Made by a program: the position numbers and the translations under genes. The notes beneath the pieces were generated by a model. The model made no database searches, had not been told where the DNA came from, and saw nothing but the letters and a program-made list of their open reading frames with translations. Below are positions 1 through 64,000 of a stretch of 64,000 nt of DNA, piece by piece. The stretch covers positions 6,778,117-6,842,116 of the forward strand of contig NC_069125.1 in NCBI RefSeq assembly GCF_026914265.1, in the 5' to 3' direction. This stretch comes from Mya arenaria. Its lineage: Eukaryota; Mollusca; Bivalvia; Myida; Myidae. How positions within the stretch are numbered: the stretch's first letter is position 1; every line of letters begins with the position of its first letter.

Positions 1-270
1 TAGACCTCCCACGCTTCTGGTGAACTTTTTGTGCTCCACTCCGGTCTACCAATCACCACGACTTATTTCCGATCAATCCTTCGATATAGCGTCCTAGCTT
101 GCCATCTAGACCCCCAAACATACACTGCACATTCTTTTCGCATCGGTGGAGATACTCTTGCCTCCAAAAACCGTATGTCTGTTTCCAACATACAGAAAAT
201 AGGCCGTTGGAAATCATCCGCCTATAAGAAATACATTCGCGCTCCGGTTCTTCCCTTGGCTTATCAGTAA
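1..270 (+). mobile_element. Tyrosine recombinase C-terminus, element cut by window edge
   Basis: The frame ending at 270 carries the C-terminal catalytic box of a tyrosine recombinase: an H-x-x-R motif (HSFRIGG, about 130-150), then GRWKS and a Tyr in AYKKYIR near the end. DIRS, Ngaro and Crypton elements share this arrangement, and the window is too short to choose between them. The sequence differs clearly from the recombinase of the Ngaro element at 26962-27933, so it is another family. A 49-bp tandem repeat begins about 120 bp after the stop and may belong to the element's 3' end. Treated as a fossil; only the 3' end is visible. Confidence 0.75.
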
Positions 271-390
271 CCAGGGCTTAGTATAACGCCGCTTCGGCCA
301 TTTCAAAATCAGCCATCATTATACTTTAATTCTATCCCTCTCTTCAATCCAACAGCCACTCTGAGCATTCGAATTGTTACTACAGTGATC

Positions 391-635
391 GGACAGTTTT
401 AGACTGCAGATCTATTTATTTCCGTTCCATACCATGTTCTGTCAGTTAAAGGCTGCAGAACTATCTGTATATGTAAATTGCCGTGATATGACACTTTAAG
501 GCCGCATATCTCTACATTTCTGTTTTTTGCCGTGATATGACAGTTTAAGGCTGCTCATCCATTCGTGTAGGTTTAGCGCCGCGATCTAACAGTCTAAGAC
601 TGTAGATCTATACATTTCTGTTAACTGTCGGGTTC
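391..635. repeat. 49-bp tandem repeat, five diverged copies
   Basis: Copies begin at 391, 440, 489, 538 and 587, an exact 49-bp spacing, each opening with a variant of TGACAGTTTAAGGCTGCA. The copies differ at many positions, so the array is not young. It lies just 3' of the tyrosine recombinase reading frame. Confidence 0.8.
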
Positions 636-966
636 TTCAAGTTTAAAGGGACTATATAAACCTCCAAGTGGCACTTGGGCAATCTTTTGTATAATTTAAG
701 GCATGTTTTACATCAGGGACACTTTTTTTCAAAATTAAGAAATACCTACAAATAGTTTAGACATGAAACTTTGCAGGCATGTAGAATAAAGGTTACACAA
801 ATAAAAAATGCTTAATTTGTTTTTGAAATACCACTAGAAACATGACTTTGGGAAAAAATCCAACTGTCAATTTGAATATTTGAATTTGCTGGGGGAGTGG
901 CTAATTGGTGATAAGTATAAAACATTGAATTGTGTTTATATACACTGACCACCCAATTTCATAACA

Positions 967-16496: not shown

Positions 16497-19400
16497 ATGA
16501 CGTTTCCTATTGTTTCTGTTCTGCGTTGTCGGTCACTTGTTAACCGTCCAACAGCTTTGTTTCTATCTTCTCGTTTACTTTCTATATCCGGAGTTATTCA
16601 TCCAAATCCAGGACCAACTTCCACTTAGGACGACCTAGATAATTCATTTCTTTCATCTTTTTACAGCGACTTAATCAACAGTGGGCTCAGCGTTGTGCAT
16701 CTCAATATTCAGAGTCTACGATCAAAACTTGAACTCATAGAGGTCGAACTTCAAAACTATGACATTCTTATATTTTCTGAAACCTGGCTTTCCCCTGAGA
16801 TTTCCAGCGAAAATATAAAAATTGCCGATTTTAGCCATCCGTTCCGTTGTGACAGAGTAGGTAGGCCTGGAGGCGGGGTCGCAATTTACGTTCGTGATGG
16901 TATCACAGCGACCGAAAGGACTGACCTGTCTGTTAACGGTATAGAGGCCATATGGATAGAAATTAACATTAATAGGAAAAAACTATTTGTTGGTGGATTC
17001 TATCGCCCCCTCCCCCCAACTCTAACAATAACCATTGGAACCTTATGGAACACAGCTTTGACCAAGCATTTAACCAAGCTGCCGACGACATTCTTATCGC
17101 AGGAGATTTCAATATTAACCAATCAATTCCATCCAACAAACTTTCAAATCTTATTAATTCGTACAATGCACATCAATTTATAGATAATCCCACTCATTTC
17201 ACAGAACATTCAAACAGTATTATCGATGTATTTATCGTAAAGCATGCACATAATGTAATCTCAAGCTTCGTATCAGATCCTATCACACAGCTCTAACAAG
17301 ATATCACTGCCCAATAGTCTGCGAACTTAAATTCACAAAATTCAAAACAAGCAATTATAAACGTCACATATGGCTTTACGACAAGGGTAACTATGGCGAA
17401 TTCCAAAATAAATTGCAAGCAACAAACTGGGAAACCATTCTCAACTCAAACAACATCGATTAGACAGCATCCAGTATATCAGATACAATTATCTCAGCAG
17501 CTCTACCACAGTGGAGAACCCACGTGACTTTTTTTGGTAAAGTGCACGGCAATAAATGTCAACAAGTCTCGATCCAGGTAAGGTTTTTAAAGATAACTTT
17601 CTTAATATTTGGAGAATGTTTGTGAAATAAAGACCATAAACCCCGCATTTAAGAGCTCTATTCACGGTATTAAAAAACTTCTCTAATATTCTAAAGGTTT
17701 CCTGAAAATCTTGACCAACTGGTTTCTCAGAGTTGAAATCTAAGGCAAAGTACGCGGCTTTTGACAAATCTATCGCTTTACTTCATGTTAGCCGTAAATA
17801 ATTCATACACAATTCTTATTTTAAGCAAATTTGATATATTTTAAAGTTTTCAGCGTGTATTGTTGAACTTCTTATAGCTATTTCAAAGGCGAAAACCAAA
17901 CTAAAACCAAATTGATAAAGTACACGGACATTTTAGGTTTGATAAAGTACACTGTCGTTTACAACCTTCAGCGTATATACTCATTATTTCACTGACTGGT
18001 GCTAAAACGAGTTATCATACATTTATTTATTATTTATATTCTTCAAATTCATTATTGAACATTGCTCCATGTTTGAAAAAACGCATTGTAATGGAGTGGC
18101 AATGGAAGAATGAATGCGTTTTAACAGTTAGACCGACGGAGTCGCCTAAATGATGGGCTCATTTTCATGAATCATGGAAACATGTGTTATCACACTAAAA
18201 TTCAATCCCGTATTTTAACAATATATTCGCAATTGACATAATAAAAGGGCTTGAAGTTCTTGTAAAGGGTGTTCCACTTCTTTTTCGTAACGTATATGTA
18301 AAACGTGTTTGTATTCATTATGCATGGTAAACAGTAACACATTACTGCTTAATAACTCTTCATTTTGTCAATTTTGAGAAAGAAAAGTGTTCTTGTACTT
18401 TTAATGTCTTCGATTGCTAGCTGATTTGATAGACTTATGATTTTGTGACATTTGTTTCATTTCAGAATATGAAGACTCCGACTTTATGCAAAGAATGCGG
18501 AATAGCATTTCAAAAAAAACACAACAAAAACAACATCTACTAGACCACGATAGAAGACATTCTGGTCAATTGCCATTGTTTTTGCGGGGAAGTGTTTACA
18601 CAGACACAGGTTAGTTTTTAGCTTTATTTTTTCGCAGAAAAATAAGAATATACTAAGAGTTATACTTTTATTATGACTCCCCTCGTGTAGAGGTTAAGAT
18701 TTGCCGTCGTCTGTCCGTGTTTCAGTGGACAGGGTCGTTTAGTTTTATGATGCTGATTACACGATCAAACACTCATTGCGTGGCAGTAATATAGTGTTTT
18801 TTTATAAATTATATTCAAGTACTGACATTGCCAGCATTTCTCGCGAACTTGTGACAGTACATGTCTTTTAATAGGTGCAGCAATCACGTTTGCAAATATT
18901 CTGGCAAAAAAAATAGATCAAATTTGCTTAAAATAAGAATTGTGTATGAATTATTTACGGCTAACATGAAGTAAAGCGATAGATTTGTCAAAAGCCGCGT
19001 ACTTTGCCTTAGATTTCAACTCTGAGAAATCAGTTGGTCAAGATTTACAGGAAAACTTTAGGATATTAGAGAAAGTTCTTTATTACCGTGGAAAGAGCTC
19101 TTAAATGCGGGGTTTATGGCCCTTATTTCACAAAAATTCTCCAAATATTAAGAAAGTTATCTTTAAAAAAATGTAACAATAAGACCTAATGACATCCCTT
19201 GGATAAACAATATGATTCGCAAACAAATAAAAATAAAATAATACACAAATTAGCTAAACGGCAAAACACTAATACAGCCTGGTCAAATTTTAGGAGGTCC
19301 AGAAATAAAGTCATATACTCAATTCGAAAGGCAAAAGAAGAACATGAAAACAAGTTAATAGTAGCAATATCTCATCTTAAAATAGTTTAAACTAGTAAAA

Positions 19401-21377
19401 AACCTTACAAATAAACAAACAAATGCAATTTTACCAACATTAATAGAAAATGATCGCACTGCGTCAACAGATCAAGAGAAAACTGAAATGCTTAACAACT
19501 ATTTCTGTAAACAATCAACACTTCCAGATGAAAACACTCAACCGCTCCCTCACGTACGAAATGCTACATCAGTCTTATCAGACATCGTCATCTCTCCTCA
19601 AGATGTCTAAGACGCGATTACCTCTTTCGACCCTTCAAAGGCTTGTGGACCCGATCTAGTCAGTCCCAGACTTATACGAGAAGGTGCACCTGTGCTTGCT
19701 ACGCCCTTATTAATATACTTTAGTAAACTAATTCGTCAATCTGTTTTTCCGTCGTCATGGAAACTTGCAAACGTTTCTCCGATCTTTAAAAAAGGAGACC
19801 CGTCTAATCCAGCCAACTACCGGCCTATTTCGTTGCTCAGCTGTCTTTGAAAACTGATGGAGCGCTGTATCCATAAGGTTCTTTATAACTATCTCGTTAG
19901 TAACAAACTGTTATCCACTCTCCAATCAGGCTTTATCAAGGGTGACTATATAATCAACCAGCTTACATTCTTATACAATGACGTCTGCAAAGCGCTTGAC
20001 GATGGCAAAGAAGTTCGTGCAGTCTTCTGTGATATTTTTAAAGCGTTTGATTGGGTTTGGCATCGAAGTCTCCTCCACAAACTATCTGCTCTTGGTATTT
20101 CTGGCTCTTTGCTTCGTTGGTTCTCTTCCTATCTATCATTTCGCCAACAGCGTGTGTTATATGCTGGTTTCTCGTCATCTTGGTCTTCTGTCAACGCCGG
20201 TGTCCCCCAGGAGTCAATTCTCGGCCCACTTCTATTTCTCGTTTATATAAACGACATCACAACGGACATCAATGCCAATATTCGCTTATTTGCTGACGAT
20301 ACAAGTTTATACATCGTGGTCGACCATCCCGACACAGCTAGCACTATACTTAACATAGATCTTTAAACCGTCTACGCCTGGTCCCGAACATGGCTTGTTT
20401 CCTTCAATCCAGACAAGTCTAAGTCTATGATATTTTCTAGAAAACACAATAAGCCTGTACATCCACAACTTTACATGAACCATATTCCAATAGAACAAGT
20501 CGAGTAACAAAAACATCTCGATATAACACTCTCAAACGATGCCAAATGGACACAGCACATCACTCTAATGTTGGGAAAAGCTTGGCAACGTATCGGTCTG
20601 CTTAGGTCCTTAAAGTATCACCTTAATCGTCCCACTTTAGAAAAAATGTACATGTCTTTTATTCGACCGCTTTTGGGGTATGGTGACATCTTATGGGACA
20701 ACTGCACAAATCAGCAAAAATCTGATAAAGAGTCTATGCAAAATGAGGCTGCTCGTATAAGTTCAGGTGCAACTAAATACTGTAATATCAACTCAATGCT
20801 CGCTGAACTAAAATCTGAGTCCCTAGCAGACAGGCGTAGAAAACACAAGCTTATTACCTTTTACAAAATATACAACTCACTTTCTCCTAAATATCTAACA
20901 GATCTTATTGCCGCACAAGAACAAACACGATACAATCTTCGAACTGCCAACAACATCCCAACTATTATAGTAAGAACACAACTTTACCAAAACTCTTTCC
21001 TTCCAGCAACTATATGTGAATGAAATAAACTTCTATACAACATCAGAAATCTGCCGTCTTTGATATCGTTTAAGAAATCTCTAAATCCAAACATGTCCAA
21101 GGCCAAACCAATATTCAGCTTTGAATCACGCACTGGACAAATATTACACACTAGATTAAGACTTGGCTGCAGCTCACTTAACTATGACCTCCATCGAAGA
21201 TCAATAGTCGATTCCCCTTTGTGTCGTTGCGGATCCGTCGAAACTGCCGAACACTTCTTACTTTATTGTCCACTGCTTGTAGACATTCGACGCCGCTTCT
21301 TGAGCAATATGCCATGTGCACCCATTTATCAAAATCTCCTCTATGGAAACGAAACTCTTTTATTTGAACATAACTAA
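16497..21377 (+). mobile_element. LINE 1: decayed non-LTR retrotransposon with 2A-like motif
   Basis: An ATG at 16497 opens a frame ending in a 2A-like motif (GVIHPNPGP, 16590-16616), soon followed by an in-frame TAG (16626-16628). The apurinic endonuclease then reads VVHLNIQSLRSK, SETW, GGGVAIYV, GGFYRP, AGDFNIN and IIDVFIV (16677-17296), with frame changes near 17030 and 17290. After a large insertion (about 17512-19170) come the pre-RT linker and the reverse transcriptase: PIFKKGDPSNPANYRPIS, FCDIFKAFD (motif A), GVPQESILGPLLF (motif B, Glu where Gly is usual) and FADDTSLY (motif C). The C-terminus has a CRCG...H...C knuckle and no RNase H. At least four in-frame stops (19848, 20364, 20505, 21021) show it is dead. 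I place it in the Jockey superfamily (CR1/L2-like), where N-terminal 2A-like motifs are known. Confidence 0.9.
17512..19172. mobile_element. Long-inverted-repeat element inserted in LINE 1
   Basis: Arms of about 260 bp at 17584-17842 and 18906-19170 are reverse complements with roughly 90% identity (shared landmarks CCCCGCATTTAAGAGCTC and AAGTACGCGGCTTTTGAC). They enclose about 1.06 kb. The insertion splits the LINE between its endonuclease and the VTIRPNDIPWI linker. Inside, 18466-18609 looks like an exon: acceptor TTTCAG before it, donor GTTAGT after it, and text resembling one C2H2 zinc finger (CKECGIAF, then LLDHDRRHSG in another frame across an A-rich run). Exact ends and target duplication are unclear. 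Long arms fit a MULE-like or foldback element that picked up a host exon. Confidence 0.65.
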
Positions 21378-24652: not shown

Positions 24653-24772
24653 CTACTGTATCATCAAACATCAAGAACTGAATGTATTGAGCTATGTCAT
24701 AATTCTTTTCGTGTTCAGGGTTGTGAACCGTCCTCAGCTTCGTCAGATACGTTTTCGTCATATCCGGATTAT

Positions 24773-26605
24773 ATGTGTGTTGAACAGTCAAATCGCATTG
24801 CGTCTAGCGATTGTATGTCTCCGACGTCTTCGTCGTTCGTCCCAGAGAGATCATGTTCGTCTATGCACTCTCACGTAAATGTTGCTTGTGATCTTAATGC
24901 TCGTGGCGATATCAATTGTTCAGTGAACCATAAATTTCAAGATATTTTAAAGCTTCATGATATTGTGTTTAATTCAGGTGTACCGAATTACAAAGGTGTT
25001 AGGATACCGTTGAAGACAAACTGGAATATTTCCTTTTTGCGGTCAGTTCTAATAGATTATCATGATTATGAAATATGTGATTTTCTTGAATATGGGTTTC
25101 CTATTGGATATTGTAAGGACATTTCACCAGTATCGGACAGTATAAATCACAAAGGAGCTACCAATTTCCCGCTGGATGTTGATAAATTAATTGACACTGA
25201 ATTAGGCCATTTTGCTATGGTTGGTCCATTTCAAAAGAATCCTCTTTGCTGTGACTTGGCTTTTTCGCCGTTGAATACTGTTGAGAAAGATGAATCGAGC
25301 CGCAGAGTGTTTGTTGATTTGAGCTGGCCAGAATTTACTTCAGTAAACAGTGGAATATTAAAAAACATGTACTTAGGAGAGGACATAAAACTTAAATTTC
25401 CAACCGTTGATTCCTTAGTGGATATCATTTTGTGTCAGGGCCCTGGTGCTTTGATGTTTAAAACAGACTTATCACGTGCATATCGCCAGATTCGCGTTGA
25501 CCCCGGTGATATTCATTTTCTATCTATAAGTTGGCGCGGTAAGATTTACATAGACTGTGCACTTCCGTTTGGATTACGTTCTGCAGCTTTTATATGTCAG
25601 CGAGTAACATCCATGATCTGTTATATTGTATCTTTGCAAAATGTACTGTGTGTAAATTATTTAGATGATTTCGGTGGTGCTGACGTACCCTCTCGTGCGC
25701 ATCACTCTTTCCGTGCTTTGTCGGATACGTTGCAACGTGTTGGTGTGCAGGAGAACGTTAAGAAGGCCTGTGAACCCTCGCCCATCATGGTTTTTCTCGG
25801 TGTACTTCTGGATTCAGATCGTTTGGAGTTACGGATTACTCCGGAGCGCTTGGAGGAAATTCGTTCTCTACTTCCAAGATGGATGAAGAAGAGATCGGCC
25901 TCAAAAAGGGATTTGCAGTCACTTCTTGGAAAACTTCAGTTTATTGGCAAATGTGTGAAACCTAGCCGTGTGTTCATATCGCGTATATTAGTGCTGCTAC
26001 GTGGTTCGAAAAATAATGATCAAAAAGTGAAGTTGGGTAATGAATTTAGGAAAGATATCAAGTGGTGGATAAGTTTTGTTCATATCTATAATGGTGTGTC
26101 CATGATTAAAACCAGTCAATGGTCTACTGTTGATCAAGTGTTCTCATCAGATGCTTGTCTTTCTGGATGTGGAGCTATTAATCAGTGTGGTGAATTCTTT
26201 CATAAAACGTTTCCCAAATGTGTGCTTGAAGCGTGCTCAAATATAGCTCAGTTTGAGTGTATCAGTGTTGTAGTCGCTTTAAAGTTGTGGTCTGTGAAAT
26301 GGCAGGGGATGAAAATATCCATATTTTGTGACAATCAAGCAGTTTGCTCTGTTTTGAATTCTGGGAGAACCAAGGATCCAATCTTACAGAAGTGCCTTCG
26401 CGAGGTAGCATACTTGGCATGCTCTCGCGAGTTCGAGCTTCGAGCAGTGCATCTGTCCTCGGCCAGCAACAGACTTGCAGACTTACTCAGTCGCTGGCAT
26501 TTAGATCGTTCTTATGCAGAACTATTTGCGCACGAGGCGCTTCTGAATGGATATACGGAGATAAATGTGGATGATTCAGTGTTTATCTTAGAAAACGATT
26601 GGTGA
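24773..26605 (+). CDS. Ngaro reverse transcriptase and RNase H
   Basis: A frame of 610 residues. Reverse transcriptase motifs are in order: FKTDLSRAYRQI (motif A), LPFGLRSAAF (motif B), VNYLDDFGG (motif C, YLDD) and FLGVLLDS. A RNase H-like domain follows, with DACLSGCGA, a central Glu (FECISVV) and CDNQAV as acidic landmarks, ending near SNRLADLLSRW. DIRS/Ngaro polymerases carry this RT-RH pair without a protease or DDE integrase, as here. The recombinase follows about 360 bp downstream. Confidence 0.85.
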   Translation: MCVEQSNRIASSDCMSPTSSSFVPERSCSSMHSHVNVACDLNARGDINCSVNHKFQDILKLHDIVFNSGVPNYKGVRIPLKTNWNISFLRSVLIDYHDYEICDFLEYGFPIGYCKDISPVSDSINHKGATNFPLDVDKLIDTELGHFAMVGPFQKNPLCCDLAFSPLNTVEKDESSRRVFVDLSWPEFTSVNSGILKNMYLGEDIKLKFPTVDSLVDIILCQGPGALMFKTDLSRAYRQIRVDPGDIHFLSISWRGKIYIDCALPFGLRSAAFICQRVTSMICYIVSLQNVLCVNYLDDFGGADVPSRAHHSFRALSDTLQRVGVQENVKKACEPSPIMVFLGVLLDSDRLELRITPERLEEIRSLLPRWMKKRSASKRDLQSLLGKLQFIGKCVKPSRVFISRILVLLRGSKNNDQKVKLGNEFRKDIKWWISFVHIYNGVSMIKTSQWSTVDQVFSSDACLSGCGAINQCGEFFHKTFPKCVLEACSNIAQFECISVVVALKLWSVKWQGMKISIFCDNQAVCSVLNSGRTKDPILQKCLREVAYLACSREFELRAVHLSSASNRLADLLSRWHLDRSYAELFAHEALLNGYTEINVDDSVFILENDW

Positions 26606-44757: not shown

Positions 44758-45475
44758 TAAAATGGGGGTGACTGGCTCAACCAGCGCCTGGACCGATGAG
44801 GTTCCAAAGTTTTAGAAGCCCTGATCATAAGGGTTGTAAACAAAATTCGTACATGCTTTTCAAATGCTGTCTTGCATGTTTTAGAAATAGCCTGTATTTA
44901 TTTTATTAACATCAGTAAAAGCAAAAAAAACAATATTTTATAAGTAAAATAACCCGGTTATTTTTTCCCCAAGTTTTTTACTTATATTGTGCTTAGGCAC
45001 AGGCAGTAAAATAATTTTGAATGTACCTCATTCAGCTAGTGAAACATTTTGGAGGTGGTACAAAAGCATGACCATGTACAACAATATACCCCATGTAAAT
45101 CATAGTAGGAATTGAAAGTGGATTTTATGGTGAGCTGCAAAACAAAAGAAAGTAACCGTAAACAATGCATTTGAATTTGTTACAAGGAGTAAACAAAGAG
45201 AGGACGGGGGCTCCCCCTCCCCTACCCTTTCCACCTTTTTACAGGTCTTAAAACATGCAATGATAGTTGAAATATGTGAAATCAATTTAAACCATCAGCT
45301 ATATGTTTGATTTTTTTTACATTATATAAATACAATTACTGCAAGCAATATAAATACCGGCTTGTATCTTATATTATTGACCTAGATGATTATAAATAAA
45401 AAAAAAGGTAGATAGAGTTTAAAAAGTTGAAAAAAACATTAAGGACATATTATAAAATAGTTTTAAACTTTTCAG
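44758..45475. other. Putative EXO5 intron or 5' flank
   Basis: No exon with a phase-1 donor suitable for the acceptor at 45475 was recognised, so the first EXO5 exon is either further upstream (beyond the repeat at 43186-44757) or too short to see. Confidence 0.4.
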
Positions 45476-47996
45476 ATGAACAAGATGTTGAAGAGGTGTT
45501 GAAAAATGGAACCGAGATTGCTGCAAGTGATACAAGTAATGCAGAGGGTTCGGTTCAACTGATTTCAACTTTAGTCAAGCGCAAAAGGGGGAAGGATGAT
45601 CTTTGTTCAGAACTTGAGGATGATGGTCTGCCTGACAACCTGGAGAAAATAGTGGGATTCAAACCCTTAAAACAACATTGCAAGAACAAAACCAGTGAAA
45701 TGGTCTCAGCTAAAAATGTAGATCAATTTCAACTTGTTGATCAATCTGAAATATCATCAGATATTTTTGTTGAATGCACAACAAGACCTAAGAGATTGAA
45801 AAAATCGGTTGAAAGTGAAAACACTAAAGATGATGCAGCTAAAACAGCTACAACTGCCTGTTCAAACAATATTATTCATGAAAAAGATGCTGAGTCAGAA
45901 GCACTGGTTACATGTAGTAAAGGTTCACATATAGCCATAACTTCTTCCTGTTTGAAAGATAATGAAAAGGAATCATGTGAAACAGACTTTGCTGAAGAAT
46001 TTACTGAAAATGATCTCTCTGTAGTAGCAACACTGGAGAAAACTCTGGAAAGTCCATTATCCAGTTTTCGCCCAGGGTATTTGTGGGTTTCTGATCTGAC
46101 ACGACAAAATTGGTGCGAACAGCAGTTGTACTACTCCTTTACTGTGCCAGGACTTGTCGAGGAAAAGCCTGTGATGACAGAGGGAACGAACTTGCACCTG
46201 GAAAGAGGTCTGCTTGCATGTCAGCTTAAAACTTTTTGTTTACCCCTCTTAAAGAAGGAGTGAGGCATAATAGAATTGCCTTTTTCCTTTGTCCGTTTGT
46301 CTATTTTTTCTTCTATCCAAAACTTACCGGAGTGATGAAAATTTCTAGCAAGGTCACGCAGCATGTGAAATTGTGCACCTTGGGTTTAGTGTGTTGTTTG
46401 GCCAATTTAGTGCCGAGTTATGGCCCTTAATTCAGTTAATTTTTGTTGTGTTGGCCTTAAAGCGGACTACAGCAGGAAATTGTATAAAACTTTGATAAGT
46501 TGCCCACATGTAATCTATAGGCTAGTTGGCAAATTTAAATAATCTGTTAATATTAATTTTTGGATAAATATTGACCTACATGTATCAACTGGGAGTAGGA
46601 TTTGTTATTGGTCTTAGCTATCAATAAATATTTTGGCCAACCTTAACCAAACCAAAGACTTAAGGCTAAATCTTAACCAGTTTTATACAATTGTCTGCAG
46701 GCTTGCTTAACCAACATTCGGATATCATCAGTACTCAGGTTGTATCATTGTACAATGTGTTGTTTTTTTTCAGACCAATAAGCATATGAAATTACCGTAG
46801 GCCGTTTTACGAAAGCAAAAAAAAAACACCACTACGGTACTTTTTTCTCAAATGTGTAAAGGAAATTTCCAAATCTTGTTTTAAAAAAAAAAGAAGTTGA
46901 TTTTGATTTAAGTGCAACATCAATGGCCTGTAAGTCGACTTCATACATCAAAGAAAAGAGAAAATGACTGGGGCATTCTGAAAAAGCAGGCTCATGACCT
47001 GGCAAACCATTCATACAAATACTGTTTTTTGCATTGGTTTCACTTTAATCAGCCAATTAAATTGTAACTTTAAATTATGTTTGCATGAATAATGCGGTGA
47101 CAAACCCTTTGAAGATTTGTTGCTGCTGAGGTGAGACTGTTTCTTCAACTACAAAATGCAAAATAGCATTGTGATCTTTGTTTCACTGATTGACATGCAG
47201 ATGACCTTGTTTATTTGCAAACAATAGTAATAATATATGGGTTTTTTATCTTTCAGAGCTTGCTGTGCATGATGTTGTCAATGTTCGAGTGACGTCTAAC
47301 GAGGACATCTGGGGGATTAAAGTCCTCAATCTCATCAACTCCCTACAGGGATTTCTAAACGGCGGAACCGTTGCCAGGGAAATACCAATATTTGGCGCTC
47401 CATTCAATGAAGGTGTTTTTATTGTTGGCCTTATTGATGAGCTACGGTTTGATCCGGAAATGTATCTGATGGAACTTTGGGAGCTAAAGACAAGGAAGCG
47501 AAAAAGTATGCCATCGAAAGCACAGTGTGTTCAACATAGGCTGCAGGTTATGTTATATAAGAAACTTTTTGATGATTTAGTGAAAGGTAACCTTGCAAAG
47601 GAAACAGTCGCAAAACACCTTCGTTTGGATTTGAAGAAAACTTTCGGAGATGATGTTGTCAAACAAGTAACTATCAACTTCTTGACAAGTAAAGATTTGT
47701 CAGAATTAATGGATGTGTTGTTCTCAAAGGTTCAATGTTTAACCTGTATTCAGGAAATCGGTGTCGAATATGTTCACCAGGACTCAAAAGGCACAATCGG
47801 AATGTGTAGAGAGTCATACAGTGATGAAGAGCTAGAAAAACTGTACAAAGAGTACCTGAAGTTTTGGCGGGGTGAACGATGTTCGACAGGTGTTGACATT
47901 GAAGATGCATGGAAATGTCAGTCATGTGACTTTGCAGACATCTGTGATTGGAGGAAAAAGAAGGCTGAAGAGTACTCGAAAAAGAATATAGTTTGA
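45476..47996 (+). CDS. EXO5: Exonuclease V (EXO5), 5' exon not seen
   Basis: Two exons: 45476-46207 (acceptor TTTTCAG, phase 1; donor GTCTGC, unusual) and 47257-47996 (acceptor TTTCAG; stop TGA). The split Glu codon at the junction restores the conserved HLERELAVHDVV segment. EXO5 is a single-strand DNA exonuclease of the RecB-like PD-(D/E)XK group with an iron-sulfur cluster, acting in interstrand-crosslink repair. Visible marks are GYLWVSDLTRQNWCEQQ (first cluster Cys), GLIDELRF and ELWELKTRK (catalytic Asp and Glu-x-Lys), HRLQVMLYK (motif Gln) and the C-terminal CQSCDFADICDWR (remaining three Cys). About 490 residues are visible against about 373 in human, the excess being an acidic, Ser/Lys-rich N-terminal extension of some 190 residues. 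All key residues are present. The first coding exon is missing from the call. Confidence 0.92.
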
Positions 47997-50633: not shown

Positions 50634-51290
50634 TCATTGATGTTTTGAAACACCACATGAGACCCATGCATGGTCACTGTAGTATGTCAGTGTTGTTGTT
50701 GGTCTTCTGCTAACTAACCCTGAGATACAGATATGGTCAAGACAAGAACCTAATACATGGGTCAGTGAGTGAGAATACTGGTGAAATCCTTTTTCTATGA
50801 GCGCCTGGCATATTCGAGGCATTGGACGGGCTATCGCATTTTGGTTGAAATCACCAGTAATAACAATTGATGGTTGACTTTCTTTGATCTGTATCTGGTT
50901 TATTTGATCTAGCAGGACAGTTTCCAGGTGCACATTCTTCTTTCCTGATGTGGGTGAGTTGTTCACTGCTATCACATAAATTGTGTCCTTTGATGTCATT
51001 ACAAGTTGACACGTAAGGGTTTGTAGTAAATGGTCTGAATAAGAAGCTGACTTGGTACACTGAGTAAATGCATTTTTTTTAACAAGTACAGCAACTCCAC
51101 CTCCTCCATCACTTACACTGAGCTTGTCAGATTCGCAAAATGTATAAATGAGCTTCAAAGTCAGTGAAATCAGGGTTTCTGTTAAAACAATTCTATCAGT
51201 GCTCAAAGCAATCAGGTCATTAATGAGGTCTTGTTTATGACATGAAAATGACCTGAAATCATAGTACCGTGGCATATTTCTGTTGTATGC
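50634..51290 (-). mobile_element. Endonuclease/exonuclease/phosphatase domain fragment
   Basis: The minus-strand frame reads as an EEP-fold nuclease of about 200 residues: an N-terminal Glu-containing stretch (VLTETLIS), GGGGVAVLV, ITGDFNQN (Asp-x-Asn), SCLDHICIS and a terminal TYYSDHAWVSCGV (Ser-Asp-His). The set matches the nuclease of LINEs and of Helentron-type rolling-circle elements; the LDH...YYSDH end favours Helentron, but no Rep/helicase or reverse transcriptase is next to it. The frame continues upstream into tandem repeat sequence, which I do not count as protein. No stop within the domain. Confidence 0.6.
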
Positions 51291-51299
51291 TTGACAACA

Positions 51300-51985
51300 A
51301 TACAGAGTTGGTCTTGCAAATGTGACATTCCCTTTACGTGCCAAATACATATGGCAAGTTATTTTAAATTGCCTTAGAACATAAAAAAAATACCACCAGC
51401 ATTCCATTGTTAATAAACACCTAAGTGTGACCTTGACCTTAGAGGTAGGGACATGGGTATTGCACGTGACACGTCGTCTTGGTATGTCGAACACATGTGG
51501 CAAGTTATTTTAAAATCTGTCCATATACGAAAAAAGTTACAGCCCGGACATGACAACCTATACTCTATGTCCTTATATGCAGCATTCCATTGTTAATAAA
51601 CACCTAAGTGTGACCTTGACCTAAGAGGTAGGGACACGGGTCTTGCACACGACACATGGTCTTGGTATGTCAAACACAAGTGGCAAGTCATTTAAAAATA
51701 TGTCCATACAAGAGAAAGTTACAGCCCGGACACGACAACCTATACTCTATGTCCTCATATGTAGCATTCCATTGTGAATAAACACTAGGAGTGACCTTGA
51801 CCTTAGAGGTAGGGACGCGGGTCTTAAATGCGACACGTCGTCTTGGTATATCGAACACATGTGGCAAGTCATTTTAAAATCTGTCCATACAAGAGAAAGT
51901 TACAGCCTGGACGCGACAACCTATACTCTATCTCCGTCTATGCAGCATTCCATTGTGAATAAACACTGTGTGACCTTGACCTTAG
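51300..51985. repeat. Tandem repeat, ~182-bp unit, about four copies
   Basis: TGTGACCTTGACC recurs at about 51425, 51609, 51790 and 51969, each with GCAGCATTCCATTGT upstream and GAGGTAGGGAC downstream. Adjacent to the nuclease fragment. Confidence 0.85.
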
Positions 51986-55111: not shown

Positions 55112-58100
55112 TCAATAATAAGTTGAAGACATGGTTAGTTTGCCGATTCCTGTAACAAGGTCGGTCTCTAAATCGTAAAGTGAACTGTCTGTCTGTACGA
55201 AGCCAGTGACGTTGTACTGTGCAAGACGTCTGCTCCATGTTGTGTTCTTTGAAACATCCAACAGCGCCTTTGTGATCTTAGCTTGAAGATCCTCTGGAAG
55301 AAAATTTGCATAAGAAATCGTTATTATTGGCCTCACTTCAAAACACAGAAGCTACAAAAACTCAAGTTTTCAGTAGCAGCGTTTTTTAAAATTTTCTTGG
55401 CAATTTCATCACACATGGTTTGTTTACAAAATGCCAAAGTTACAATTTTGAAAGATTCAGCAATTCTGTTTCTCTGTGAGTTGTCCAATCATTGTTCGAC
55501 ATTTTGATCACATGATACAACACCATTATCTCATTGGACTATTTATCACCTTTATAATTCAAATGACGTAAAAATTCCGAAACCGGAAAAAATGCAGCAT
55601 CGACATTTTGACCTGACGCCGTCGTTTTACTTGTGCATTTAAGTTTATTTCTAAAGGATGCATTTAAGGTAAAGAGTTAAAAATGCTTGTCATTTTATTG
55701 TGCCATAATGGAGAATATGATAAATGCCATAAAATGTTGGTATCACTCGAAATGGAAGTGCTTCCTGATTTATAAAATGTTAAATATATTAAGAAAAAGT
55801 TATTGCAGTTTATTCTGATGTTTATTTCAACTGAGATTTGGATGGAAGCCGGCCAATTGCACACTACACATAACACCCATTAACATGGTAGCTAAATATT
55901 AATAATATGTCATTATGTGGTCATCACTGGCATTCAAAACTGACATAATTATACATCGAATAGCTTAACATATTAAAATAACCATTGAACAAGAGGCCCA
56001 AAAGGGCCTATGCTCTACTGGCATGGCTTTTGTGGTCATATCAATCCAGAGCATGTATGTATGGGTAAAAGGCAACAGACATATAGTTTATGTTTTGTGT
56101 TTGGGTTACCTGAAAACGTAGCACGTTCAACATCTGAGCCCAGAAAGTATTGTAAGCAGATTAGTTGCATGAACTATTTTAATATGTGCCAAGTAAAAGT
56201 CATCTTGACAAAAAAAAATGCTTTAAAAACTGTACTCGTAGTAAAATTTTCTGTAGTTTTAAAAGTTAAAAAAAGTTGGTCAAAAGGTCAAAGTCAAGGG
56301 CATCCTAGGACAACATTGATCAATTTGAACAAACATTCACAATCAATTGTGCTGAGATGGATGCACGAACACACAAAAAGATTTTCAAACCTTTCCAGAT
56401 TTATGTTTACCAAACCTGTGAACCCTGGGTGTGGCCAGTAATGACACCAGGTGCATAACTTAAACATTCACAATCAATTTTGTTAAGATGAATGCGCAAA
56501 CTACAGAACTTAAAGCTAAAAAATGGCCTTTGGGCTTTCAACAAGAACAAGGCAGAGTAATTCACAAAATCAACTGCAGAAGCAAAAAGCAAATTGTCTC
56601 TCAAAATCCTAGACTTGCAAATTGTCTCCCTTAACTCTAGACTTGAATTAACATATACATGTAAACTTGGCTAAAAATAGAATTCGCTCATGCAGACCTG
56701 GCTAAAAATAGAAAGCATTTCTTTAAAACTTTCATGGCCCATAATCTAGGCATTCATGGGCGGATCTTGCTGGTTTTCGAAAGGAACCAAGCTCTAATGG
56801 ATATCTAGATACTGTACAAGTTTCATCGAGATATAATCAAAACTGAAGACTGTATCGTGTTCACAACCAATTGTTTACACAATAGCATTTTTTTATACTA
56901 TCAGGCTGGTTTTCGAAAGGAACCGAGCTCTAATGGATATCTAGATACTGTACAAGTTTCATCGAGATAAAATCAAAACTGAAGACTGTATCGTGTTCAC
57001 AAGCAATTGTTTACAGACGCACGGACGCACGGATGCACATACTACGTACACATTACCATCGCATAAGCTTTTCTGGCCTTTGGCCAGTAGAGCTAAAAAT
57101 GAACTAGAACCCCGCGAGTCGGATGTGTCGCCTGACGAATTATTTACTGTCGACATTATAGCTGTTAGATTGGCATTTTATTCATTTATAGATAATGATG
57201 TTGCCATTTAACTTTCAAGTGTAGGTGGCATTTGAACCCTCAATCAGATATACCTACGGAATAAGTTACAGGTTGAAACCTCCTATAGTTTACGAGATAT
57301 GCCACGGACAAAACCTAAGCAAGAAAATTAACAAAGGGCAATAACTTAACTCTAAAAATATGGCAGCAAGAGTAACAGTTCTTGTGCACTGCACTTGCCC
57401 TCAATGAGATCTATCTAGCTATGAAGTTTCAAGTTGATACCTCTTATATTCTTCAAGATATGCCACGGACAAAACTTTAAGCATGAAAATTAACAAAGGG
57501 CAATAACTTTAAAACTAAGAAAGCAAGAGTTTCTGTTATTGTGCACTGCACTTGCCCTCAATGAGATATATCAAGCTATGAAGTTTCAAGTTGATACCTC
57601 TTATATTCTTCAAGATATGCCCCGGACAAAACTTTAAGCATGAAAATTAACAAAGGGCAATAACTTTAAAACTAAGAAAGCAAGAGTTACTGTTATTGTG
57701 CACTGCACTTGCCCTCAATGAGATCTGTCTAGCTATGAAGTTTCAAGTTGATACCTCTTATATTCTTCAAGATATGCCCCGTACAACCTCTTATATTCTT
57801 CAAGATATGCCCCGGACAAAACTTTATGCAAAACTTTATGCATGAAAATTAACAAAGGGCAATAATTTTAAAACTATGAAAGCAAGAGTTACTGTTATTG
57901 TGCACTGCACTTGCCCTCCATGAGATCTATCTACATATGAAGTTTCAAGTTGATAACTCTTATATTCTACAAGATATGCCCCGGACAAAACTTTAAGCAT
58001 GAAAAATAACAAAGGGCAAAACTCTAAAAATATGGAAGCAAGAGTAACAGTTCTTGTGCACTGCACTTGCCCTCAATTAGATCTATCTACATATGAAGTT

Positions 58101-61100
58101 TCAAGTTGATACCACTAATAGTTTAGGAGATATACCCCGGACAAGCGAAAATGGGACGCGGACGCTTAAGTCAAAGGGAGATAACTCTGAATTCCAACAT
58201 CAGAACTATTTTGCTTTACCTTTTGAATTGAATTTATAATCAGATGCAAAACACTTACACACATCACCAATTGCTTATTGGCAATAGAAAAATGGCAATC
58301 CTAATTACAAGTTCAAACCATGAAATATATCTATTCCTTAATACAATTTCAAACATGATGATTGAATACTGAATCCTAAATCAATTTCAAACGATGAATA
58401 TTAAATCCTAAATACAATTTCAAACCAAGAAATATTGAATCTTAAATACAATTTCAAACCATGAAATAATGAATTCTAAATATGATTTAAAACCATGAAA
58501 TATTGAATTCTGCACACATTTCAGAGACTTGAAATATTGAACTTGAAGTACGGTACAATTCAAAGCTTTGAAATAAAGATATAAGCATACCAGACATTTT
58601 GGCGCTTAATACAATAGGATATGTTGGTAGAGGTCCGAAGGAGTTTATGACATGAACATCGTCCACGTGGTTTGGGTGTTGAGTAAGAAATCCATGGAGA
58701 GCGTTAGAGTCGACGGCTGCTACATCCACACGACCATCCAGCACACTCTTGATCAATCCTATATGAGATCCTGCAAATATGTGGTATAAATGATCTAAAC
58801 ACACGATGTCATTGAAAAAATTAGAATTTGAGCAAGCCTGGAAAGTGTTTTCTTGCATATCGGACGTGTGTTTCCGGTCATGTGACCAGTGCTTACACCC
58901 CCAAATTTTAGATATGCAAGAAAAATTAACAATCATGTGTTTCCGGTCTGGATCGAAAAATCCGACCCTCAGGCACGCTGCGTGGCCGGCAACTCGGCAA
59001 GCCTCGTTCCCAGCTTACGCGCGTGCCTTCGGGTCAGATTTTTCGATCCGCACCGGAAACACATGATAGATACTTATATTACCAACACAGGGTTTTAAGG
59101 CTTCTGCTTATTTCCACCACTGTAACTGACAAAAACAGAACTGATTAATTCATCAAGTATTCATGAAAGCCTCAACTTGTGAAAGACTTCTTATGTTTGA
59201 AATTTTTCAGTAAATGTCAAAAATCTCTGTAAGGCAAGCTTTTTTCACATTTCAGATATTGGTGCCTATATTTTCAGTGTGCCTATGTGTATGCGTATTT
59301 ATCAGTGTGTGCTAAGTTTCATGAAAGTATTTTGAATGTATGTGTTTTAATATGGTCAAGTTCAGATATAGGAAATCTTGACTTTTAATCAAGTTATTAG
59401 GTATCAATGTCTACCGGTAGTTTGAAACATGAACTGTACTGTTACATTGAAATAAGTACACAATTCTGTATTAGGTTGCATATTACTCCTGGATTCGGTA
59501 AATTATTCATATGAGAACATTTCAAAACATTTACCAGACAAGTAAGTGTCGCTGAAGAAGGATGCATCAGCGCCCTGTTTCTTGAGATAGTCGAGGACAG
59601 ACACACAAGACGACAGCGAGCTCTTGTCTGTAAACCCGAGAATGTGGCCACGAAGATCGTGCAGTTCCTTGTACTTCGACCTGGTTGACAGATTCAATAT
59701 CAAATCCACTGATAATCACTATTTTTCAATGTTTTTATTTCAAGCTACACATTCACAGATGTGGAAATGAAAATAAAAAAAATAAATAAAAAAGTATTAA
59801 AAGGAAGAAATTTTAACTTAGTTTTGTTGTCGGCCTTTTTAATACTGATATATAAATATATTCCATATCAACTAAGTTTTAATTGTTTTAACCATCAAAA
59901 TGACCACACACTTCTAATCTGGCTCATGCATAAACAGTATTTTCTGTTCATTTTTTTTCTTTCCAGGAAAGTTACAATAGAAATTGTGAAGAAAAGAAGC
60001 AAACTAAGCACTTTCAATCAAAATTAACATTGGCGACCAACTACATTAATGGACAACAGTAACAACTGTCATTGGTTCAGAAAAATATCGCGTTGTTGCA
60101 AGAATATTTATTGACTTGTTTGTATCGATGTTGTTGAAATGTAGGGATCATCATAGCATGTAGGAATCGACTCAAAATGTAGGGAAAATCTCAAAATGTA
60201 GGAATCAACTCAAAATGTAGGGAAAATCTCAAAATGTAGGAATCAACTCAAAATGTAGGGAAAATCTCAAAATGTAGGAATCGACTCAAAATGTAGGGAA
60301 AATCTCAAAATGTAGGAATCAACTCAAAATGTAGGGAAAATCTCAAAATGTAGGAATCAACTCAAAATGTAGGAAAAATCTCAAAATGTAGGGATCACTT
60401 TGTATTTTATTCCAAAATTTATAGACAATTATGTGAACTGTTGACTCACAGTGCAGCAGTTTTAAAGATTGATTCCTACATGTTATGTGTTTATGCCGTA
60501 GATGGGAGTTGCAAATTAATTACACACACTAGCACTTCCTGAGAAATATCAAATATACACCTATAAATCTTACTTGTTTCTGGCATTGATAATAACATCG
60601 GAGTAGTAGACAGGCCGGCCTGTGTTTTTCTTGTGGTTAAACACCGCTCCTGCACCACACAACACTACACTCTTGTTCCCATCTTTGGCCATACGCAGGA
60701 AGTCAGTGCTCGACATGAATCCTGGGAATTTACAAATTCATAGCAATTTGGTATATAATGATAATGTACTGAATGCAATTGAAAACAAACAACTTATTAC
60801 TGAATGAACATTGGTGGTGGTTTATGTTTAAAACTTTTAATACTGTATGGATGATCAGGGGGCATTATACTCACAAAGTATTACTGGTAATATCAGAGTT
60901 ATCAGCCTTAAAACATTTGTGCTTATTATCACTGGTGACATGTATCGAGTTTCTTTAGAATAATCTTGAAAATAATGGCCAAGGCTAGAAATGTTGCCCG
61001 ATTCTTCAAAGATGCTTAAGGTACATAAAATGATAAACAATTATTTATCAAAGTAAGAATTTTGAAACTTGTTATACATGTGTCTACTGTCACCAGGAAC

Positions 61101-61532
61101 ATATGTACTAAGTTTCAAGTAAATGTTTTGAATTATGGCAAACTTTAAGGTTTTTGCACATCAATGCCATCATTAAGGAAATGACAATTCCTATACTTTT
61201 CTTTTCGAAAAATCTAGGCAGCTAAAAATAGAAATTGAGCAAAAAGTGAACTTGATTATTCTAGAAGTATAATGTACATTAGTTAGCTGTTATAGAGAGA
61301 AGAAGTCAGTTTATCTAGCATAAACCATGTGTTACCCACCAATATCAGCGAGGTTGCTGGTGAACGGGTCAACCCTGTCTTTGGGAGGCCCTGACCAGCG
61401 TGACTCATACGTCAGGTACCCATCCCTCCCTGTCACCTCCTCCAGGTATTCTAGAATGGTCTCAAACAACTCAACCGGAAGGCTCGGACTCAGATACGTG
61501 ATTGCGCGCAAGTTTTCACGAGCCTCAGTCAT
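55112..61532 (-). CDS. PhnD-like periplasmic-binding-protein-fold protein, five exons
   Basis: Exons 61532-61340, 60721-60574, 59680-59535, 58770-58591 and 55293-55112 join in phase, with GT/AG borders throughout (first donor GTGGGT), to give 282 residues from ATG to TGA. The text follows the type II periplasmic-binding fold of the phosphonate-binding (PhnD, Pfam Phosphonate-bd) family. It has an opening AITYLSPSLPVELFETILEY, the ADIGFMSS turn, GRPVYYSDVIIN at the first domain crossover, LRGHILGFTDKSSLS, then GRVDVAAVDSNAL, FGPLPTYPIVLS and a C-terminal EDLQAKITKALLDV. There is no signal peptide or membrane segment, so it is probably intracellular, unlike bacterial PhnD. Ligand unknown; phosphonate binding is not implied. 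Intron 4 (3.3 kb) holds a large repeat and a tandem array. Confidence 0.8.
55988..57098 (-). repeat. Large interspersed repeat, AGCTCTACTGGCC/GGGCCTCTTGTT family, copy 2
   Basis: Starts AACAAGAGGCCC and ends GGCCAGTAGAGCTAAA, the reverse complement of copy 1 at 43186-44757. The block CTGGTTTTCGAAAGGAACC...CAATTGTTTACA occurs twice (about 56770-56880 and 56905-57012), a local duplication. It lies in intron 4 of the PhnD-like gene. Confidence 0.75.
57230..58150. repeat. Tandem repeat, ~160-bp unit, about five copies
   Basis: GTGCACTGCACTTGCCCTCA recurs at about 57385, 57538, 57699, 57899 and 58056, with GAAGTTTCAAGTTGATA and AACAAAGGGCAA blocks in each unit. Inside intron 4 of the PhnD-like gene. 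Confidence 0.85.
58933..59065. mobile_element. Short foldback repeat
   Basis: A 133-bp inverted repeat. The left TCATGTGTTTCCGGT...GGATCGAAAAATC pairs with the right GATTTTTCGATCC...CCGGAAACACATGA, and GGCACGC pairs with GCGTGCC further in. Lies in intron 3 of the PhnD-like gene. Confidence 0.75.
60172..60395. repeat. 19/38-bp minisatellite
   Basis: Alternating 19-bp units AAAATGTAGGAATCAACTC and AAAATGTAGGGAAAATCTC form a 38-bp dimer repeated about five to six times. In intron 2 of the PhnD-like gene. Confidence 0.9.
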
Positions 61533-63004
61533 TTTGGAAGGTTCGTGTTGAAAGATGAGACAGATAAGTTATTCTATTTTGTTGTTTTAGTTATCTGAAA
61601 TAGAAAAACAATATTTAGTCAAGCTCCTTCAATACCCTTTGTCACTGTGGTAGGAATCAAAGAAGCGAAAACTGGGAGTATTAGCAGTCCCGATTGAAGT
61701 TGGTTGATTTATCTGTAATAACTATCAGAAAAAAAACATGAAAAAATGTTGTTAATATAGAAATAAAACAATAAAAAAATGCATTGAGTAAAGTAGTAAC
61801 TGTTGTTCCCTTTTTCTATCTATCAGCAAGATAACTTTTAGGCAACTATAAATTAATTGCTAGATTTTCATCACCGCCCAGCCCTCTTTTTTGCCGCCCC
61901 ATAAACTTTATTGATACAAATAGAATTGTTAAACTAGGGTCTGTGTTTACGTATTTGTTCTGCACTGTCCGGGAACGGCAATTAATACCTTTAGTGTCGA
62001 TGTATAACATTCACATGTAAAAAAGGAGAATTTGTTACGATCGTGTTCGTGTCAAATAAGAAAAAAAAAAAAAAAAGGCACCCCCTACCCCTTAAAAAAA
62101 CTTTATGCGAAAATCCATGGAAACCAGTCATATAAGACTGCTGACAAAAAATTAGAATGCAGATTTTTATATTTAAGCTCAAAAATGGATGTTTATGCAT
62201 TATTCTTAAACCATAAGTAACTGTTTAAGCCATAAAACATTCATTTTCGAAACAGAAATATGAAAATTTGCGATCTGATCTTTTGTCAGCAGTGTTTTAT
62301 CATTGGTTTGCTGATATTTACGCAAAAATTTGCTCCTTTAAAGACAACAAATAAAAAAGTTGTAAAAATGGTATATCTGTGATAGTGCAGCTTACAAAAC
62401 CCAAAGAACTAGGAAATTGAATTAAAAAACTTTTAAAACAGTATGTGAACACAGATAATTAATTATTTACAATCACCAATTTGCAATGAAACTTTATCAC
62501 ATAAACTCCAACAACAAAATTTTCATATAAATTTGTTTTAAACCATCTTGCCAGACAAATTTCTACCCTTCTACTCAATTTTGACAAATAGTTATTGTAA
62601 TGTTAACCATGGTGTGGGTAGATAGATCCGGGTATATGGATGTTTAAGTTACATTTTCAGCACCCGTGTGACTGATCTTCAAATACATTAAGTGATAGTG
62701 CACGGTTGACAATATCTGCAAGCACTCATGTATTTAATTACTAGATACATTTTATCAAAATACTGGTTTTAACACAGTTTCAACATTAAACTGTATCAAA
62801 GTGATACAAATTTGACGAAATAAGGAGAAAAAATTATGAACATATACAATGATAAGTGAGAGTTTATAATAATTATTGCAATACATGTTTTTCATAATGC
62901 TTTAATGACATAGTCTTTTTATTTAAAAACAAAACAAAACATTAATTATAAGCAATACCAGATGAGCAGTTTATTAAGTGATGAAGTGCAGTCGGCAAAG
63001 TAAT
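61533..63004. other. 5' flank of the PhnD-like gene
   Basis: AT-rich sequence with a poly-A run at about 62060. No TATA box at a convincing distance and no gene recognised. Confidence 0.45.
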
Positions 63005-63199
63005 ACATGGCATGATATGAACAAAGAAATACATGTCATGATACGAACAAAGAAACACATGTCATGATACGAACAAAGAAACACATGTCATGATACAAAC
63101 AAATAAACACATGTCATGATACGAACAAAGAAACACATGTCATGATACGAACAAAGAAACACATGTCATGATACGAACAAAGAAACACATGTCAAGATA
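63005..63199. repeat. 26-bp minisatellite, about seven copies
   Basis: AAACACATGTCATGATACGA plus ACAAAG repeated with very few changes, so a young array. Confidence 0.95.
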
Positions 63200-63465
63200 C
63201 CGTGTGTAAAACATGTTCACTATCTATAGCACTGAAGCAAGCACTTGATAAAAAAGTCCTGTACTGTGCAACCGACCAGCCTCGGAAATAAACCCGAGGC
63301 GGCCTAGCTGTGCTCATATGCCAAGTGTAATAGCTCACAAAGTATGAATACTGAGCTGCATTCTCATATCAATTTTATCGAATACACATTGTACAATATA
63401 GATAATAAATTAATGATGTATACAGCATGAAGTCGACTGGTAGAATGACCACATATTATCTGCAC
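63200..63465. other. Spacer between two tandem arrays
   Basis: No gene or repeat recognised. Confidence 0.4.
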
Positions 63466-64000
63466 CTATATCATGTAATCCTCGTACAAGACTGACCAAT
63501 CAATACCTCTATATCATGTAATCCTCGTACAAGACTGACCAATCAATACCTCTATATCATGTAATCCTCGTACAAGACTGACCAATCAATACCTCTATAT
63601 CATGTAATCCTCGTACAAGACTGACCAATCAATACCTCTATATCATGTAATCCTCGTACAAGACTGACCAATCAATACCTCTATATCATGTAATCCTCGT
63701 ACAAGACTGACCAATCAATACCTCTATATCATGTAATCCTCGTACAAGACTGACCAATCAATACCTCTATATCATGTAATCCTCGTACAAGACTGACCAA
63801 TCAATTCCTCTATATCATGTAATCCTCGTACAAGACTGACCAATCAATACCTCTATATCATGTAATCCTCGTACAAGACTGACCAATCAATACCTCTATA
63901 TCATGTAATCATCGTACAAGACTGACCAATCAATACCTCTATATCATGTAATCCTCGTACAAGACTGACCAATCAATACCTCTATATCATGTAATCCTCG
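63466..64000. repeat. 43-bp minisatellite running off the window
   Basis: More than twelve nearly identical 43-bp units (CTATATCATGTAATCCTCGT then ACAAGACTGACCAATCAATACCT). Only single-base variants were seen (for example ATCATCGT near 63905). The array is not finished at 64000. Confidence 0.95.

Follow-up and report, generated by a model that had tools for sequence, protein, structure and literature searches.

Bacterial binding proteins of the Pfam family PF12974 (Phosphonate-bd), which include the PhnD, PtxB and AioX types, have so far been studied as exported parts of importers or sensors. In PhnD of Escherichia coli, Glu177 and Asp205 hold the amine of 2-aminoethylphosphonate, according to PMC5700983. 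Here we describe a member of this family encoded by a gene with introns in a 64,000-nucleotide stretch of the genome of the bivalve Mya arenaria (positions 6778117-6842116 of contig NC_069125.1; henceforth the window). On sequence grounds the animal protein can be assigned firmly to a bacterial subfamily of PF12974 that is itself without an export signal, and the gene is probably of bacterial origin.

Gene structure and family assignment

The gene lies on the minus strand (61532-55112; Table 1), where five exons join in phase into a protein of 282 residues, with GT-AG boundaries at all four introns (618, 893, 764 and 3297 bases). An earlier interpretation made from the DNA letters alone (the sequence-only reading) had recognized this in-phase join, although its count of five introns has to be corrected, since five exons leave four coding introns. 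Each exon scores individually (18-59 bits) against a profile built from 26 bacterial relatives and zero animal sequences. Against the same profile the 282-residue join is the top scorer, with 242.4 bits, of 240 joins enumerated from nearby splice sites, 12 of which exceed 250 amino acids; the maximum over 200 shuffled versions of the animal protein is 5.8 bits. The second-best join (236.4 bits) differs by a six-residue shift of one junction, and the end of exon 2 together with the start of exon 3 constitutes the least certain junction, because an alternative pair there scores only 6 bits less. The guanine plus cytosine content is 48.1% in the coding sequence and 30.5-37.2% in the introns.

The product matches PF12974 with 123.4 bits against a cut-off of 27 (E 1.2e-35), with residues 13-262 of 282 aligning to profile positions 6-242 of 242, a nearly full-length match that bears out the phosphonate-family binding-protein fold proposed earlier. 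The cut-offs of narrower models are missed, namely those of the PhnD equivalog TIGR03431 (75.1 versus 261.1 bits) and the subfamily model TIGR01098 (95.7 versus 112.05 bits), and a match to NMT1/THI5 is weak and sub-threshold (E 0.035). In sequence comparison with proteins of solved structure, ArrX (1.6e-12) and AioX (5.5e-11) come first, followed by HtxB, PtxB and PhnD. A fold model made for a Chloroflexota relative (L015) rather than for the animal protein, with a mean predicted local distance difference test score of 95.3, finds its best PDB matches in ArrX and AioX and then in PtxB and PhnD; Thi5 also appears, as a distant match. The ranking is the same at the sequence level when 35 signal-less proteins are combined into a profile (ArrX 2.3e-40).

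The frame that opens at the ATG contains no signal peptide, as the sequence-only reading had also held, and the domain begins near residue 10. Further, this ATG is separated from an acceptor-like AG by an in-frame TAA at 61571-61569, and the frame therefore does not extend upstream through the acceptor-like site. A targeting peptide on the animal protein would require a different, unseen upstream exon.

Placement among signal-less bacterial proteins

Sampling for the tree started from 98 of 175 distinct domains retained after clustering, supplemented with the row of the animal protein and with PhnD of E. coli (thus entered twice). In a first revision, nine rows whose branches were long, duplicate or odd were removed, a further 29 were taken out by manual choice, and 13 near rows came in; a final revision removed five rows and added four from Planctomycetota and two from Chloroflexota, giving 76 rows. 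The topology tests apply to this final set, with groups defined after inspection of the tree.

In the maximum-likelihood tree of the 76 rows, the animal row lies inside a 27-row clade with support of 100/99, whose bacterial members (21 from Actinomycetota, four from Planctomycetota and one from Chloroflexota) are signal-less by a hydropathy rule in 26 of 26 cases. Nearest to the animal row in the best tree are two proteins of one Planctomycetota genome (100/89). By the approximately unbiased test (p-AU), a position of the animal outside the 59-row signal-less family is rejected (p-AU 0.0082), whereas its placement as sister to the 26 near rows stands (p-AU 0.176); on account of these two values, membership in the signal-less family is firm and the identity of the nearest neighbor is not. 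The signal label requires four changes on the final tree. Its exceptions are two proteins with signal-like N-termini in or beside the signal-less family (L059 and L073; handles beginning with L denote bacterial loci), and one signal-less protein among the exported rows (L133).

Transfer from bacteria is favored because the animal row nests within the bacterial signal-less family, and it is from this nesting that the bacteria-to-animal direction is probably to be read. The sequence-only reading had left ancient transfer and old eukaryotic inheritance side by side and had proposed a tree as a check; the tree, run with bacterial homologs, tips the balance toward transfer, while the sister placement still leaves room for inheritance. 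Additionally, because the bacterial subfamily is itself without signal peptides, an intracellular life was probably inherited rather than acquired. The free intracellular binder envisaged earlier survives with this refinement, and the idea of a PhnD whose signal disappeared in the animal was set aside, as the bacterial clade of the animal protein likewise lacks one.

The best BLASTP match of the animal protein is a Planctomycetota protein (36.8% identity over 258 residues), and its identity to the 26 near-clade rows ranges from 26.6 to 37.2%. A scan of genome contigs kept 80 of 107 confirmed loci, with 23-33% identity to the animal protein, a set that is biased because the query alignment already contained signal-less proteins. 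Phylum sweeps with the animal protein alone as query are free of that bias, although their center genomes nonetheless came from the genome-contig scan; their counts include exported relatives, and phyla are named according to the loci used as centers. Matches were obtained, at E <= 1e-3, in 91 of 299 genomes of the phylum to which a betaproteobacterial locus belongs and, at 1e-8, in 27 of 117 cyanobacterial, 23 of 121 Chloroflexota, 13 of 149 Actinomycetota and 15 of 95 Myxococcota genomes. The closest proteins in these sweeps are L140 from Chloroflexota (7.7e-42) and L151 and L152 from Actinomycetota (8.6e-41 and 6.3e-40). A second-round profile composed of these three and the animal row matches 47 of 396 Actinomycetota genomes (1e-15), 37 of 400 Chloroflexota genomes (1e-40) and 8 of 382 Planctomycetota genomes (1e-30). 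Among plasmid records the best E-value, taken over 30 of 182 matches, is 3e-19, for a cyanobacterial protein without an evident signal peptide. Only 2 of 50,697 phage records match, both of them Staphylococcus phages; viral carriage was set aside, as scans of viral contigs confirm no relative.

Conservation of the anion-binding site

By alignment, the animal protein retains the oxyanion-core residues Y103, S135, S137, H165 and D183. In mature PhnD of E. coli the first four correspond to Tyr93, Ser127, Ser129 and His157, whose roles are taken from PMC5700983; in AioX all five correspond to Tyr131, Ser161, Ser163, His192 and Asp210, with roles from PMC5908839. Conserved positions are kept preferentially: the animal protein retains 24 of the 33 columns that are conserved at >=95% in the 26 bacterial rows, and has the commonest residue in 10 of the 101 columns conserved at <50%.

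The rim of the site differs. At the position of AioX Cys106, all 26 near rows carry a cysteine, for which the animal has Ser68; at the cap position, the 26 near rows all have glutamine and the animal has Tyr213. These changes (C68S, Q213Y) suggest a ligand unlike that of the bacterial kin. Five of the seven residues of the AioX/ArrX pocket (Tyr88, Cys106, Tyr131, Ser161, Ser163, His192 and Asp210) are identical in the animal protein, short of what an arsenic sensor would show, and an AioX-like arsenite sensor was set aside given that the arsenite-binding cysteine is Ser68. In comparison with PtxB, the S-L-S and histidine are present along with a tyrosine at the aligned cap position, a comparison that covers the motif and the first of the two cap residues (the second being D22).

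Gene neighborhoods of the bacterial relatives

The search for phn genes took in the surroundings of each of the 26 near-clade rows, which for four rows meant short contigs or about 1.4-2.4 kb only. In nine loci, which make up one Actinomycetota subclade (98/88), phnE lies directly upstream of the signal-less gene (X). Seven of these show the full order phnD-phnC-phnE-X on one strand, and the remaining two are cut contigs with phnE immediately upstream of X. The PhnD N-termini of all seven operons read as lipoprotein signals, with a hydrophobic run followed by a cysteine. The aligned gap from PhnE to X is 16-26 bases in four loci (L171, L208, L210 and L213) and 46-162 bases in the other five. 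As judged from gene order, this adjacency links the signal-less branch to phosphonate-type uptake. In a distant betaproteobacterial-type relative (L071), phnD, phnC and phnE are nearby on the opposite strand.

In the L208 operon, the permease is above the PhnE cut-off (260.8 versus 216.7 bits) and the exported PhnD above that of TIGR01098 (228.2 versus 112.05 bits), with PhnC under its cut-off (219.8 versus 266.1 bits). A LysR-type regulator (320-1195) and the exported PhnD (1198-2070) of L208 also have sub-cut-off matches to selenium-related models (192.7 and 192.5 of 250 bits). The imported anion is therefore probably phosphonate-like, but given the selenium-related matches it may be no phosphonate at all.

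Other genes recur beside signal-less members. Metallophosphoesterase-like genes accompany two near-clade relatives, at 5-715 (-) of L207 by Pfam match and at 2947-3813 (-) of L209 by likeness of the frame. Among 35 cyanobacterial signal-less loci, counted by organism name, 24 (including L007, L009, L019 and L023) have a tetratricopeptide-type gene just downstream on the opposite strand; a Pfam scan of one example of this gene returned no domain.

Genomic setting

Within its own genome, searches with the PF12974 model and with the protein match this locus alone. Tandem repeats are present within the introns of the gene, and intron 3 carries an imperfect inverted repeat that is perhaps a small mobile element. 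The window holds 44 open frames of at least 95 amino acids, 10 of which were scanned for domains: two are pieces of an EXO5-type nuclease gene, five match reverse transcriptases or element-type endonucleases, and three have no match. By its domain matches the EXO5-type gene is a eukaryotic neighbor of the binding-protein gene. Neither a permease nor an ATPase of an ATP-binding cassette (ABC) importer was found among the scanned frames. Retroelement remains are seen in frames 1889-2260, 16629-17183, 19851-20366 and 24653-26605 (+) and 50634-51509 (-), the match of 24653-26605 lying just below the cut-off. Two tandem arrays stand near the end of the window (Table 1).

Table 1. Features of the binding-protein gene and its surroundings, in window coordinates; exon scores are against the bacteria-only profile
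Feature	Position	Strand	Remarks
Exon 1	61340..61532	-	ATG at 61532-61530; encodes residues 1-64 and ends after the first base of codon 65; 59.3 bits alone
Exon 2	60574..60721	-	36.5 bits alone
Exon 3	59535..59680	-	S135-L136-S137 anion-binding motif (by alignment); 23.1 bits alone
Exon 4	58591..58770	-	H165, D183 and Y213 (by alignment); 51.0 bits alone
Exon 5	55112..55293	-	C-terminal part and stop codon (included); 18.1 bits alone
Intron 4	55294..58590	-	tandem repeats, and interspersed repeats recurring at 43.2-44.8 kb of the window
Acceptor-like AG	61595..61596	-	after a pyrimidine-rich stretch; possible intron of the 5' untranslated region; read from the sequence
AATAAA	55027..55032	-	possible polyadenylation signal, ~80 bases beyond the stop; read from the sequence
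Inverted repeat in intron 3	58924..59075		~150 bases; 79% match between the repeat and its reverse complement
EXO5-type exon	45412..46263	+	Pfam Exo5, 33.0 bits (cut-off 25)
EXO5-type exon	47205..47996	+	Pfam Exo5, 149.3 bits (cut-off 25)
Tandem array	62996..63200		26-base unit
Tandem array	63466..64000		43-base unit, 12.4 copies, 99% matches; reaches the window end

Proposed role and alternative explanations

Taken together, we regard it as reasonably probable that this nuclear gene derives from a bacterium and encodes a soluble, cytosolic, two-lobed protein that binds a phosphate-like oxyanion and probably acts as a sensor or buffer. The exon structure, the family, the absence of a signal peptide, the membership in the signal-less family and the retained anion-site residues support this explanation. 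Under it, an ancestral gene from the signal-less branch of the PF12974 proteins would have entered the animal nucleus, and we infer that it is expressed, its product being a soluble Venus-flytrap protein that would remain in the cytosol. Between its lobes, Y103, S135, S137, H165 and D183 may grip a small, tetrahedral oxyanion belonging to the phosphate or phosphonate class; binding would close the lobes, and the closed form could serve as an intracellular sensor or buffer without a membrane partner. An extension that we put forward more tentatively, and would not ourselves bet on, is that the animal domesticated a cytosolic bacterial protein as a phosphate-like oxyanion receptor whose rim was re-tooled for a new ligand (cysteine to serine at the arsenite position and glutamine to tyrosine at the cap), the bacterial parents being undescribed cytosolic partners of phosphonate-type importers.

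Several observations weigh against this proposal. The sister placement stands in the topology test, and the animal branch is long (1.64). The signal-peptide label comes from our own hydropathy rule rather than from a dedicated predictor. Four residues of the animal protein (C68S, N131T, G138S and Q213Y) depart from what is invariant in 26 of 26 near bacterial rows, the position of PhnD Tyr47 and AioX Tyr88 is not clearly conserved (Trp46), and leucine takes the middle place of the S-T-S motif, as it also does in 23 of the 26 near rows; with such changes in the site, binding could be altered or lost. Finally, phn genes are missing from the examined flanks of 17 of the 26 loci in the near clade, among them the two closest to the animal.

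The main evolutionary rival, for a tree sampled from bacteria plus the animal row, is an old eukaryotic gene: the signal-less family would have entered eukaryotes, or been present in them, early on and been lost in most lineages, and the bivalve copy would be a relic rather than the outcome of a transfer into molluscs. The long branch, the four introns, the surviving sister placement and the lack of an animal-like close bacterial donor, as seen in the identity of the best BLASTP match, all accord with such a history; however, the best tree nests the animal row in the bacterial near clade, paired with Planctomycetota, and we consider the relic unlikely while giving it real weight. Far less can be said for bacterial contamination or a decaying bacterial insert, which the bacterial kind of the protein would allow and which we practically dismiss: the four GT-AG introns contain repeats found elsewhere in the window, the locus is embedded 6.8 Mb deep in one contig of an 18-contig, 1.216-Gb genome with an EXO5-type gene in the same window, and the frame is open over 282 codons with its conserved residues preferentially kept. 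The settled nuclear gene that the sequence-only reading had argued for is thereby upheld.

On the functional side the main rival is a cytosolic enzyme, in which the two-lobed fold would be used for catalysis rather than for sensing or buffering; Thi5 and menaquinone enzymes of this fold class exemplify such a catalytic use. The absence of a signal peptide, and of a transporter partner among the scanned frames, would fit an enzyme, as would the weak NMT1/THI5 match, the distant likeness of the L015 model to Thi5 and the metallophosphoesterase beside the near-clade locus L207. Yet the closest folds of that model are the binding proteins ArrX, AioX, PtxB and PhnD, and the anion-binding S-x-S and histidine are kept with no catalytic motif recognized, which makes an enzyme rather improbable. 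A further idea is a 2-aminoethylphosphonate carrier for clam phosphonolipids, given that the family is phosphonate-binding by name and that ceramide aminoethylphosphonate occurs in the clam Meretrix lyrata, as reported in PMC6429517. However, the amine-holding Glu177 and Asp205 of PhnD (roles as cited above) align with N185 and Y213, so that the acidic cap is absent; 2-aminoethylphosphonate as the ligand was set aside on this ground, and the carrier is highly improbable.

Comparison with known systems

The fold and the family are well known; the signal-less branch, its position behind phnE and the animal copy do not appear among the titles and abstract beginnings listed by literature searches, nor does any animal member of the family. 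The words "phosphonate" and "Mya" do not occur in the main text of a compendium of animal gene transfers (PMC13342648). Some Actinomycetota have a gene of the signal-less branch behind a complete importer of the phosphonate type, and an intact gene of the branch is present in an animal nucleus; together these raise the question of intracellular oxyanion sensing or buffering. Further, given a comparison of animal genomes, the locus would be a compact example on which to date the passage of a gene from bacteria to an animal.

The closest counterparts are the signal-less bacterial PF12974 proteins found in Planctomycetota, in Actinomycetota and in one Chloroflexota genome (L242, L250, L243, L244, L151, L152, L140 and others), a group for which we know of no published name. 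They are homologous to the animal protein over its full length and have in common with it the YLSP start and the SGP, GRPVY, S-L-S, GSH and DSN motifs; the animal gene differs from them in its introns, in the four changed invariant positions and in having no phn operon. The arsenic oxyanion sensors AioX, ArxX and ArrX, unlike the animal protein, are exported, and the sensor kinase and regulator that neighbor the AioX gene have no counterpart among the scanned frames of the window. With PtxB and PhnD the animal protein shares the Pfam family, the S-x-S and histidine of the STS-H motif and a tyrosine at the cap position, whereas those proteins are exported, operate with permease and ATPase partners, and carry STS where the animal protein has SLS.

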